The translations under genes were made by a program, and so were the position numbers. From Erysipelotrichaceae bacterium (lineage in GTDB: Bacteria > Bacillota_I > Bacilli_A > ML615J-28 > CAG-313), in contig SVBG01000003.1 in the NCBI GenBank assembly GCA_015059015.1, positions 186,001-250,000 on the forward strand: 64,000 bases of DNA, written 5' to 3'. Shown piece after piece: positions 44,332 to 48,679 of this stretch (positions within the stretch are counted from its first letter, which is position 1; every line of letters begins with the position of its first letter). The notes under the pieces are model-generated. The model ran no database searches, was not told the DNA's origin, and worked only from the letters and a program-made list of their open reading frames with translations.

Positions 44332-45561
44332 ATGAAACCTCTAGCTTATTTAATGCGACCTAACACATTTGAAGATATCGTTGGTCAAGACCATTTAGTA
44401 GGGCAAACTGGAATAATTAGAAAGATGCTAAACACAAATAGCTTATTTTCTTTTATTTTATATGGTAATCCTGGGTGTGGTAAAACAACAATTGCGGAAG
44501 CTACTTGCAAATTAAGTGGTTATAAATGGTTTAAATTTAACGCATCAACTGATAACAAAGAAACATTAAAACAAATCATCACAGAAGCAGCATTTTTAGA
44601 TGATGCAATCATAATAGTAGATGAAATCCATCGTATGAAAAAAGATATCCAAGACTATCTACTACCATATGTAGAAAACGGAACAGTTATTATGATTGGT
44701 CTTACGACAGTAAACCCATATCACTCTGTAAACCCTGCCATTAGATCAAGATGTCATATCTATAGACTAAATGATTTAACAAGTGTTCACTTAAGACAAG
44801 TTTTAGACCGTGCTTATAAATACTTAGATAAAGCAATTAAAATTGATGAAGAAGTATATAACTATGTTATTAATCTTGCAAATGGAGAAATTAGAACACT
44901 AATCAATCTATTTGAAACATTAGTAAAAACTGCAACAGAACACATTACTTTAAACGATGCTAAAACATCACTTAGCAAAGCAAATGTATCATTTGACGCA
45001 AATGGAGATAGTTATTACGACACATTAAGTGGTCTTCATAAATCAATTAGGGGTAGTGATGTTGATGCAGCATTACACTATCTTGCCAAACTAATAATTG
45101 CAGATGACCTACAAAGCTTATGCAGAAGACTTCTTTGCATCGCCTATGAAGATATAGGACTTGCAAATCCTGGTATAGGACCAAGAGTAAAAGCTGCATG
45201 TGATGCCGCAAGAGAACTAGGAAATCCAGAAGCTCGCCTGCCACTTTCAGTAGTCGTAATTGAAATGGCTCTTTCCCCTAAATCAAATTCAGCATACACA
45301 GCACTAAATAAAGCAATTGAAGACATTGAAAACGGTAAAAGTGGAACACTACCAAAACATTTAAAGAATACCTATTCATTTGATCCTACGCAAGGTGCAT
45401 ACAAATACCCACACGATTATCCAAACGCGTGGGTAGATCAACAATACCTACCAGATACATTAGTAGGAACTAAATACTACATTCCCAAACCAACTTCTAA
45501 ATCAGAAACAAGTCTATATAATAGATACATGCAAATAGAAGGATATAAAAATAAAAAGTAA
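44332..45561 (+). CDS. rarA: Replication-associated recombination protein RarA (MgsA)
   Basis: Clamp-loader-like AAA+ ATPase that acts at stalled forks. The 409 residues start with MRPNTFEDIVGQDHLVG. Walker A is GNPGCGKTT (residues 45-53), Walker B IIIVDEIHR (near 92-100), the sensor region LTTVNPYHSVNPAIRSRC, and the C-terminal tetramerisation domain contains ARLPLSVVVIEMALSPKSN. The family match is strong across the whole length. Monocistronic, with a bidirectional terminator. Confidence 0.95.
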   Translation: MKPLAYLMRPNTFEDIVGQDHLVGQTGIIRKMLNTNSLFSFILYGNPGCGKTTIAEATCKLSGYKWFKFNASTDNKETLKQIITEAAFLDDAIIIVDEIHRMKKDIQDYLLPYVENGTVIMIGLTTVNPYHSVNPAIRSRCHIYRLNDLTSVHLRQVLDRAYKYLDKAIKIDEEVYNYVINLANGEIRTLINLFETLVKTATEHITLNDAKTSLSKANVSFDANGDSYYDTLSGLHKSIRGSDVDAALHYLAKLIIADDLQSLCRRLLCIAYEDIGLANPGIGPRVKAACDAARELGNPEARLPLSVVVIEMALSPKSNSAYTALNKAIEDIENGKSGTLPKHLKNTYSFDPTQGAYKYPHDYPNAWVDQQYLPDTLVGTKYYIPKPTSKSETSLYNRYMQIEGYKNKK

Positions 45562-45577
45562 ATACTATTTAAAAAAC

Positions 45578-45616
45578 AAAAGGCTAACGATTTTTTTAAA
45601 AAAACGTTAGCCTTTT
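45578..45616. terminator. Bidirectional terminator, rarA / 78-residue gene
   Basis: A 12-bp stem AAAAGGCTAACG/CGTTAGCCTTTT with a 15-base A/T loop, between convergent genes. Confidence 0.8.
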
Positions 45617-45621
45617 ATATA

Positions 45622-45858
45622 TTAATTTAAATATAAAATTGTTTTTATTGTTATATTTTCTATAACTCCAAATTTATTAGTTATTTCATAAGCATTTTCT
45701 AATTCAAAATATATTATTTCTTTACTTATATCAGTTAATTTAAATGAAATTTCTAAATTAAAATCATCATATGAATCATATATTTTATCAATAATATCTA
45801 CATCTAATGATTTATCATACTCTTTAATAATTAATTCACACGTATAATATTTAAGCAT
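45622..45858 (-). CDS. Unknown small protein (78 residues)
   Basis: I do not recognise this protein. It is beta-rich and acidic, without membrane helices or cysteine motifs. The ATG follows directly after the stop of the preceding gene (TAA-ATG adjacent), so translation is likely coupled. It is the last gene of a three-gene set that begins with the FtsK-like protein, and it ends in a terminator shared with rarA. A role with those two partners is inference from the layout. Confidence 0.6.
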   Translation of the reverse strand: MLKYYTCELIIKEYDKSLDVDIIDKIYDSYDDFNLEISFKLTDISKEIIYFELENAYEITNKFGVIENITIKTILYLN

Positions 45859-46374
45859 TTAAAAAAAATCAGTTGATATATTGCCTTTAAAATATCCATC
45901 AATAACACCACTAGCAAAATATTCATTTTCTAAAGCAATTAATGATAAACATTTAAAATCATAAAACGAATCACCAACAGCAATATTAATAGGACATTTA
46001 ACATATACTTTTTTATTAGAAACAATAAGATTTTCAAATTTAATGTCGCTAAATATAAATGACAATACTTTTTCTATAATACAATTACCATTTTCATCTA
46101 ACACGTAATTTTCATCTTTTTTATGATAGTATTCACTAGATGAATATCTTTTCTCAATTATATCTTCGTTGTCTTTATAATAATTATAAGCTTTTTCAAT
46201 AATTGAATTAGAAATTAATTCTCTAATGATACCTTTTTGTGTCCATTTATATCTATCATGCCAATTAGGAATATGATGTTTTTGTACATCTACTTTTAAT
46301 AAATGAACTTCATTTAAATTCTCACCTAATTCTTTTCCTAAATTATAAGATTCTTCTTTATTAAATTTTAACAA
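45859..46374 (-). CDS. Unknown protein (171 residues) downstream of FtsK-like gene
   Basis: I do not recognise this family. The protein is soluble, rich in Asn/Lys/Asp/Tyr, with a charged N-terminal half (KWTQKGIIRELISNSIIEKA) and a more hydrophobic C-terminal half (DFKCLSLIALENEYFASGVI). The start is uncertain: the TTG at 46374 is the first standard start in frame, but AAGGAG lies about 17 bases before it and the open frame extends further into the FtsK-like gene. It is tightly linked to that gene upstream (32 bases) and to the 78-residue gene downstream (adjacent). Confidence 0.55.
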   Translation of the reverse strand: MLKFNKEESYNLGKELGENLNEVHLLKVDVQKHHIPNWHDRYKWTQKGIIRELISNSIIEKAYNYYKDNEDIIEKRYSSSEYYHKKDENYVLDENGNCIIEKVLSFIFSDIKFENLIVSNKKVYVKCPINIAVGDSFYDFKCLSLIALENEYFASGVIDGYFKGNISTDFF

Positions 46375-46406
46375 ACAATCTTTTAATGATTCTCCTTCAA
46401 TGATTA

Positions 46407-47990
46407 CTACTTTTCTATTTTTTTCTTTTCTTCTTCTGATAATCCACCTACCGCAACTCTCATAACAATATCTAATTGTTTAATTAAACCTTCTTCTCCA
46501 ATCTTTAAACCAGTACTATGAGAAAAACCAAACATTTTTAAAACATCAATAGAACTATTATCAAGAGTTAAAATATAACTAAACGAATCATAAAAATAAT
46601 GGTCATTTACAATATAATCATCAAGTCTTACAATAAAATAAAAAGAAAGATCTTTACTAAGTTCAATTAAATATCTAATTTTTCCTATTAAATCTTTATT
46701 TATAATTTTCTTACTTAAATTTACAAAACAGATTTCAATCTCATCATCTTCTTTATTCTCAACATCAACAATTAATTTATTAATATTATCACTATTTGTT
46801 TCATATAATAAATAGTCTTTAAACAAAGTTAATTCATTATTTAAATCAAATAATCTAACTTTATAACGCTTTAATAAACTTAAGGCAATATAAAAATATA
46901 AATTATTGATATTATTTATAAACATCAAACAACTAAAATGTTTATCATCTAATGCTTCAACTTCAAAATGATCATTTATTCCTAAAAATAAAATATTATT
47001 ATTATAACTATTAAATACTTCATATAAACTAATTTTTCTAATCTCTTCACTAGAAAATTCAATCATTATAATACTATCATCTTCATTAATTTTAAGTAAA
47101 AATGGTTTTGTAAGACTTCTAGATAACTCATTTTCTAATTTATAGTAATCAATTTTTAAATAACTTTTAATTTCAACAACTATAAGATGAGGAGTTAAAT
47201 AATGATTAACTTGATAATGATAATAATTTAATTTATTTAAAATAAGCTTAATCTCATTTATTATCTCTAGAGTAGAATTAGATTCAGTATATTCAGATAT
47301 ATCCCCTTTTTTTATAAAATTTTTAGGTAGTTTTTTTAGAACAGGTGTATTAAATTCTTGATTAATATTTTTAATTGCACTACGAGACTTAACTATTAAT
47401 AACTTAATTTTCTTAAATACTACTTTTAACACTTTAACAATTAATTTAAAAAATTCATTTAATGTTTTTCTAGATATAAAACTTACACCTAAAACAATTA
47501 ATAATAGTGATATTATGATAACTCCAGGAATTGATAACAAATAATAAAACAAATAAAAAAATAACATTCCTATTATTCCACCACCCGTAATAGATTCACT
47601 ATTTGCAGTTTTAAAATAATCAATATAAACACTAATTGTCAAAGAAAAATAATCTTCAGAATATTGTTTTATATAATTATGCATCGAAAAATGGGATAGG
47701 ACAATTAAACTTAAAAATATAAAAAAAATTCCTATTACCCTTAATGATGATATTGGTAAATGGTCATGAACCATTAAAAAATAACATCCTGCAAGTATCC
47801 CTATAATAATAAATAAAAATGCCCAATCTCCAAATAATAATTTAATCGTTAAAAATAAATATAATCCAAAACTACCTAATTTTGCAAGTGCAAAAAAAGA
47901 TAGTACTGCAAGTACTATACCTAATATTTCATAAAAAAATAAATTTTTCTTCTTTGAACTTTCATAAGGTTCTTTTTTTACTTTTGGCAT
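46407..47990 (-). CDS. Degenerate FtsK/SpoIIIE-like membrane protein without motor motifs
   Basis: A 527-residue protein that follows the SpoIIIE/FtsK layout. Four N-terminal helices (about 20-175) carry family landmarks FGDWAFLFIIIGILA, LIVLSHFSMH and TGGGIIGMLFF. A basic linker follows, then an alpha-like domain (about 240-320) and a beta-like domain (about 330-510) with VRLFDLNNELTLF matching the DPKxVELxxY region. Where SpoIIIE has Walker A (GATGSGKS) this protein has FINNINNLYFY (358-368), and the Walker B Asp-Glu is also missing. The C-terminal gamma DNA-reading domain is absent. It therefore cannot be an ordinary DNA pump. The frame is intact and starts with GGGGAT before ATG, so it looks like a maintained, repurposed protein. 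Confidence 0.8.
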   Translation of the reverse strand: MPKVKKEPYESSKKKNLFFYEILGIVLAVLSFFALAKLGSFGLYLFLTIKLLFGDWAFLFIIIGILAGCYFLMVHDHLPISSLRVIGIFFIFLSLIVLSHFSMHNYIKQYSEDYFSLTISVYIDYFKTANSESITGGGIIGMLFFYLFYYLLSIPGVIIISLLLIVLGVSFISRKTLNEFFKLIVKVLKVVFKKIKLLIVKSRSAIKNINQEFNTPVLKKLPKNFIKKGDISEYTESNSTLEIINEIKLILNKLNYYHYQVNHYLTPHLIVVEIKSYLKIDYYKLENELSRSLTKPFLLKINEDDSIIMIEFSSEEIRKISLYEVFNSYNNNILFLGINDHFEVEALDDKHFSCLMFINNINNLYFYIALSLLKRYKVRLFDLNNELTLFKDYLLYETNSDNINKLIVDVENKEDDEIEICFVNLSKKIINKDLIGKIRYLIELSKDLSFYFIVRLDDYIVNDHYFYDSFSYILTLDNSSIDVLKMFGFSHSTGLKIGEEGLIKQLDIVMRVAVGGLSEEEKKKIEK

Positions 47991-48062
47991 AATAATATCC
48001 CCTTTAGTTTTAATACTATAATATTTTACTTTACCAAAGATAAAAAAATTGATGAAAAAGAA

Positions 48063-48082
48063 AAAAACCCTTTCGGGTTTTT
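48063..48082 (-). terminator. rpmG terminator
   Basis: An 8-bp stem AAAAACCC/GGGTTTTT with loop TTTC (plus-strand sense); on the minus strand it ends in a T run. It lies 17 bases after the rpmG stop. Confidence 0.85.
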
Positions 48083-48098
48083 ACTTACTAAGTTAATA

Positions 48099-48328: not shown

Positions 48329-48679
48329 TTAAACAATCTTACCTTTTGCGTCAAGTACCAAATAAAGAACTGTAATAAGAACAACGACACCAACAAAAAT
48401 ATAAAACGTAATTGCACCTTTTTTAGCAGATTTTGCACGTTCAGGATAACTATTTTTAAACATACCATAGAAAACCCATCCTAGCACAGATTCTGTAATA
48501 AATGCTAAAAATGCCCAAATCCATAAAGGTACATTATCAACAATTACCTTAGTATTTGTGCTTTGAACTGTTTCATCTTCATGACTTTCTAATTTAACAA
48601 ATTCATAACCACATTCGCATTTTTCTTGATTAATATCATATTGTTTTTGACATTTAGGACAATATTTAATTTTTTGCAT
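48329..48679 (-). CDS. Zinc-ribbon membrane protein
   Basis: A 116-residue protein. An N-terminal zinc ribbon (CPKCQKQYDINQEKCECGY, residues 7-25) is followed by an acidic linker and two hydrophobic helices (about 52-72 and 89-110). Such short zinc-ribbon membrane proteins are common in Bacillota and mostly uncharacterised. No partner is suggested by context. Confidence 0.75.
   Translation of the reverse strand: MQKIKYCPKCQKQYDINQEKCECGYEFVKLESHEDETVQSTNTKVIVDNVPLWIWAFLAFITESVLGWVFYGMFKNSYPERAKSAKKGAITFYIFVGVVVLITVLYLVLDAKGKIV

Follow-up and report, generated by a model that had tools for sequence, protein, structure and literature searches.

A conserved SpoIIIE homolog with a predicted dead motor, kept by selection beside a soluble, probably SftA-type translocase

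What might a bacterium keep a SpoIIIE-like membrane protein for once its DNA-pumping motor appears to be dead? In FtsK and SpoIIIE, a DNA pump is joined to a membrane part, and what the latter contributes is disputed; the question is posed by a gene in the window, i.e., the whole stretch of 64,000 nucleotides analyzed here from contig SVBG01000003.1 of an Erysipelotrichaceae bacterium. The gene (46407-47990, minus strand) is a genuine open reading frame of 527 codons with an ATG start and, 5′ of it, a good ribosome-binding stretch (AAGGGGATATT). We parse it as follows:

46407..47990, minus strand: coding sequence, including the stop, of the motor-dead SpoIIIE, 527 aa (open reading frame, orthologs, FtsK profile and fold matches)
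47463..47942, minus strand: FtsK_4TM-type membrane domain, residues 17-176, the best-conserved half (hydropathy, AlphaFold2 helices, FtsK_4TM in 20/22 homologs)
47580..47696, minus strand: TM3-TM4 loop, residues 99-137, predicted to be extramembrane from the topology suggested by homology to SpoIIIE
47283..47462, minus strand: basic linker, residues 177-236, poorly conserved and modeled by AlphaFold2 as a long helix (177-212) followed by disorder
46986..47282, minus strand: alpha-domain-like part, residues 237-335 (hhalign to soluble motors and intact transmembrane FtsKs)
46410..46985, minus strand: dead beta (RecA-like) domain, residues 336-527, with gamma absent (hhalign, Foldseek)
46887..46931, minus strand: former Walker A region CLMFINNINNLYFYI, residues 354-368 (motif table, coordinates)
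46704..46742, minus strand: former Walker B region EIEICFVNLSKKI, residues 417-429 (motif table, coordinates)

Searched alone, the 527-aa sequence returned zero matches from the PDB with phmmer and a weak FtsK_4TM match (PF13491; E 0.11) from Pfam, but the same four-TM domain is found in 20 of 22 homologs, and the FtsK_SpoIIIE domain (PF01580; best E 9.4e-11) in 11 of the 22. A profile from 22 sequences reaches the FtsK motor in the PDB (2ius; E 2.2e-12). By hhalign, the 35 dead homologs match 17 intact membrane FtsKs across 577 columns (E 8e-67), and the set of 22 matches soluble motors across 352 (E 1.6e-21). The alpha/beta motor fold indicated by PF01580 in the homologs also emerges from the AlphaFold2 model of the protein (pLDDT 77, pTM 0.52), whose best PDB matches in Foldseek are FtsK motors (2ius, 2iut, 6t8b; E 3e-13). 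By these comparisons and the predicted structure, the protein is a SpoIIIE/FtsK homolog over its whole length, with predicted four-TM, alpha and beta folds. The first-pass annotation had read a SpoIIIE-like membrane domain and a motor-dead FtsK-type fold from the window and had named structure prediction as a check; that check finds the fold, and the reading emerges from the profiles, hhalign and the model stronger than it was put. Two of the landmarks it assigned to the motor were misplaced, as LIVLSHF (residues 95-101) and TGGGIIGM (135-142) both fall in the membrane domain.

The motor itself lacks the catalytic residues and DNA-reading part of a translocase. The Walker A signature GK[ST] is found in none of the 35 homologs and the Walker B Asp-Glu pair likewise in 0/35, while Pfam yields no FtsK_gamma match for the window protein or its homologs, the chain stopping after the beta domain. 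The absence of the Walker motifs and of gamma, already remarked for the window protein, thereby extends for the motifs to the entire set, and none of the relatives shows the restored P-loop that would have pointed to a defect peculiar to the window. The manner of erosion differs between lineages: in many f2 members another residue stands in for the lysine of a loop that still looks like a P-loop (GSKGSGIKN), the seven f8 members retain the lysine without its neighbors (GNDINSKID) and have ND instead of DE, and in the window's clade, the most eroded, the P-loop is wholly lost. The protein is accordingly predicted to have lost normal ATP binding and hydrolysis and to have no gamma DNA reader, and it presumably cannot pump DNA by itself.

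A lone sequence with almost no detectable family match might reflect faulty sequencing or assembly, or else a normal FtsK gene that has recently become a pseudogene. We reject this reading as vanishingly improbable: the same state recurs in independent MAGs from other species, the motifs are missing from all 35 homologs, which already refute it, and dN/dS is low. The frame is open in 35/35 homologs from five families, with identity down to about 22%. Against the 95%-identical ortholog of congener G001, the window gene has a dN/dS of 0.141 (NG86) or 0.057 (YN00), partitioned into 0.09 for the membrane half and 0.16 for the dead motor; another homolog pair gives 0.031/0.052, and in one pair the dead motor (0.042) compares with 0.061 for the active motor of that genus. 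In most comparisons, change has been quicker in the dead motor than in the membrane half. Nevertheless, dN/dS lies well under 1 in both halves, as the claim that selection maintains the gene had anticipated, and these ratios indicate purifying selection that retains the gene where it is present. All ten columns invariant among the 35 homologs (K3, K5, G39, G54, G87, H100, G136-138 and G168) are confined to residues 3-168, i.e., the N-terminal basic stretch and the membrane half; the TM3-TM4 loop contains the invariant His100 and extends into the invariant GGG of 136-138. Structural residues of the motor fold are also retained (Gly337 in 32/35, Leu495 in 33/35, Arg511 in 31/35).

The gene neighborhoods bear on whether this is a duplicate or spoIIIE itself. 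In families f4 and f8, the order is dpaA, aspartokinase, (dapA), RNase J, the dead gene, a lipoprotein gene and an ABC transporter, and in f12 an intact SpoIIIE occupies the slot that the dead gene holds in f4 and f8. This corresponds to the slot of spoIIIE in B. subtilis, which we take to lie after dapA and RNase J. RNase J still precedes the dead gene in f21 and part of f1, and the window copy retains only the rarA side of the neighborhood. In a membrane-domain tree made by a quick method, 35/35 dead homologs form one group apart from the intact transmembrane FtsKs (SH-aLRT 99). In a different tree, the one that splits soluble motors from transmembrane FtsKs at 99/96, the dead motors of f8 are placed on the transmembrane side, on a long branch. 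Since the slot is shared with the intact f12 SpoIIIE, we identify the window gene, on locus evidence, as the organism's own spoIIIE, motor-dead and no duplicate, a point missing from the first-pass annotation. Its neighbors are:

44332..45561, plus strand: rarA (mgsA), convergent, the nearest conserved neighbor of the dead spoIIIE (Pfam MgsA_C; neighborhoods)
45859..46374, minus strand: adjacent 171-aa orphan gene, not judged part of the system (absent from G001 L003/L065 and other loci)
45622..45858, minus strand: adjacent 78-aa orphan gene, not judged part of the system (absent from other loci; no Pfam match above cut-off)

Across the f1, f2 and f21 loci read, rarA lies convergent next to the dead spoIIIE, with lineage-specific genes between them in three. 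The 171- and 78-aa genes had been proposed as tightly linked partners; their adjacency stands, but they are present in the window's genome only among the loci examined, being missing even from the 95%-identical G001 locus, and the 171-aa protein has zero Pfam, plasmid or phage matches. We reject the partnership and regard them as species-specific insertions beside the dead spoIIIE. The gap between spoIIIE and rarA gathers lineage-specific genes (also at L073), and in G001 the place of the two orphans is taken by a 253-aa gene (L003 3163-3924, plus strand) resembling a P-loop kinase fused to a nucleotidyltransferase. On the other side, beside rpmG, the window encodes a 116-aa protein with a zinc ribbon and a membrane helix (48329-48679, minus strand), which is also found in G001 and G004 and belongs to no known family.

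The suggestion that a true translocase is encoded elsewhere proved right. The window's genome, in which the window protein is the sole FtsK_4TM-type protein, has one true FtsK motor (L001 694-2613, 639 aa) with intact Walker A and B motifs, alpha, beta and gamma domains and zero transmembrane segments, the soluble and catalytically complete architecture of SftA. All three domains are present in 26/26 aligned motors of the order; carriers of the dead gene have a single competent motor, and all the complete motors examined in carrier genomes are soluble. In trees, the soluble motors separate from the transmembrane FtsK/SpoIIIE proteins, including E. coli FtsK (support 100/92 and 99/96), and the f8 soluble motor has a DUF84/thioredoxin-like pair on one side and murC on the other, a placement shared by the f12 SftA-like protein, which marks the motor as SftA-type. 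From architecture, locus and a tree built without B. subtilis SftA, we consider the soluble motor a likely SftA ortholog; NCBIfam gives no means of telling SftA and SpoIIIE apart, as all motors match its FtsK model below the cut-off. An origin of the two genes by splitting one FtsK into membrane and motor genes is rejected on three grounds: soluble motors and transmembrane FtsKs form separate groups, the f8 motor occupies the f12 SftA-like slot, and the dead gene still has its own dead motor. The soluble motors of several families share an N-terminal motif, F-V-S-P-x-x-G-x-x-V-K-D (e.g., L186 5751-8600, plus strand; also L014, L076-L095, L148, L203 and L204), to which many add Y-x-N-x-G-x-Q-Y-D-x-F/L-R in an otherwise variable region; it is a candidate divisome-binding motif. 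Two further proteins came up in the survey: a large EssC-like (type VII secretion) ATPase in G001 (L028, G001:C40), not found in the window's genome, and a 623-aa P-loop protein of f18 (L207) with a coiled-coil-like N-terminus, which matches the dead-motor profile and has an architecture unlike FtsK or SftA.

The dead spoIIIE is present in 12/15 genomes of the window's family (10/10 of those of good quality), in 10/28 of a second family of the order and in representatives of another three families of the class, five in total; the related contigs are mostly gut MAGs labeled Bacilli, Anaeroplasma bactoclasticum or Acholeplasmataceae. A survey of the class, in which one to three genomes were read for most families, found a soluble motor with a dead SpoIIIE in f1, part of f2, f4, f8 and f21, an intact membrane SpoIIIE in f3, f6, f7, f9, f11, f14, f17 and f19, an intact membrane SpoIIIE plus an SftA-like protein in f12, and a soluble motor without a SpoIIIE-type match in f5, f13, part of f2 and one f21 genome; at this depth, mostly one to three genomes per family, no genome combined a dead and an intact SpoIIIE. 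The dead form was encountered only in genomes with a soluble SftA-type motor. It has also been lost cleanly, even among the window's congeners:

45541..48097, no strand: stretch with the dead spoIIIE and the 171- and 78-aa genes, absent from G003 and G004, two congeners (blastn against L226 and L227)

In both congeners, rpmG abuts rarA, leaving a clean empty site. The gene is likewise absent from 10/14 good-quality f2 genomes, and in the f2 genomes without it, rarA has other neighbors and no spoIIIE remnant was found. As it has been lost in several lineages (G003/G004 and f2), its job is not essential: the dead spoIIIE is dispensable, though selected where present. These repeated losses, together with the strong P-loop erosion in the window's clade and the faster evolution of the dead motor in most comparisons, could be taken to mean that the protein is a slowly decaying remnant of little function, heading for loss after an SftA-type motor took over. 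We regard this as unlikely, given that every frame is open across families of low identity, that both halves are constrained and that the residues of the motor fold persist.

We instead favor, at about even chances of its being right, the reading that DNA pumping passed to an SftA-type motor and that the dead spoIIIE, vertically inherited, was kept for a job at the membrane or septum. Under this proposal, an SftA-type soluble translocase would first have become able to pump DNA, after which the SpoIIIE ATPase would have died once, in a common ancestor of the five families. The dead protein would have retained its four-helix membrane domain, extramembrane loop and alpha/beta ring fold, and would act at the closing septum through the membrane domain, where a SpoIIIE-like ring or channel, presumably oligomeric, could help seal or separate the two daughter membranes or contact the divisome, DNA movement being left to the SftA-like motor. 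In B. subtilis, a SpoIIIE without ATPase activity is reported to allow fission of the septal membrane though it does not translocate DNA; its foci hold as many molecules as those of the wild type, and fission relies on the TM domain together with the large extracellular loop (PMC4423119). That mutant is the best precedent for the pattern of loss and conservation seen here, and the restriction of the invariant columns to the N-terminal/membrane half likewise appears to count for a septal or membrane role. Against a role of the membrane part only, about 290 dead-motor residues need not have been kept; against a septal role, the fission activity was described for sporulating B. subtilis, and these bacteria may not share it, and the gene losses make the protein non-essential.

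Retention of the dead motor fold would be explained if the dead SpoIIIE were a partner of the SftA motor, its inert ring stacking or mixing with SftA and holding it in place above a membrane channel. The dead form does occur only alongside such a motor, its fold is kept and in one pair is as constrained (0.042) as the active motor (0.061), and SpoIIIE and FtsK rings tolerate inactive, non-consecutive subunits (PMC4728128). However, genomes that lack the dead protein also encode the soluble motor, N-terminal motif included, which weakens the motif as a dock for that protein. SepF, which reportedly helps SftA bind the Z-ring in B. subtilis (PMC11790237), occurs in 38/43 genomes irrespective of the dead SpoIIIE, so that a dead SpoIIIE anchoring SftA in place of a missing SepF is not supported either. 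We therefore hold the partnership to be somewhat unlikely, while a regulatory-subunit role for a translocase, as the first-pass annotation had suggested, is possible. Distinctly unlikely, in our estimate, is a stable division of labor in which the inert membrane SpoIIIE ring forms a septal pore or receptor and the chromosome is threaded through it by a distinct, soluble hexamer of SftA type.

With the pump dead, the membrane part under selection and a soluble relative doing the pumping, the favored reading would make this a natural separation-of-function protein, and the congeners with a clean loss natural controls for asking which role the SpoIIIE membrane domain has when no pumping is coupled to it. 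Its occurrence beside an SftA-type motor also bears on the advantage of having two chromosome translocases, which is an open question (PMC5357621). In the open-access literature, to which our search extended, we found no earlier description of a conserved motor-dead SpoIIIE. With B. subtilis SpoIIIE, the window protein shares the four-TM N-terminus, linker, alpha/beta motor fold and genomic slot, and differs in its shorter linker and the lack of functional Walker A/B motifs and gamma. Like the laboratory SpoIIIE-ATP- mutant, which keeps assembly and septal fission (PMC4423119), it is a membrane SpoIIIE predicted to lack ATPase activity; unlike that mutant, it is natural, old and common to several families, and has lost gamma too. 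The FtsKs of E. coli and P. aeruginosa (2ius, 2iut, 6t8b) resemble it in motor fold and type of 4TM domain, whereas it is without their catalytic residues, gamma and long linker. B. subtilis SftA, soluble and catalytically complete in contrast to the window protein, is likely the ortholog of the working soluble motor of these genomes and not of the dead SpoIIIE.
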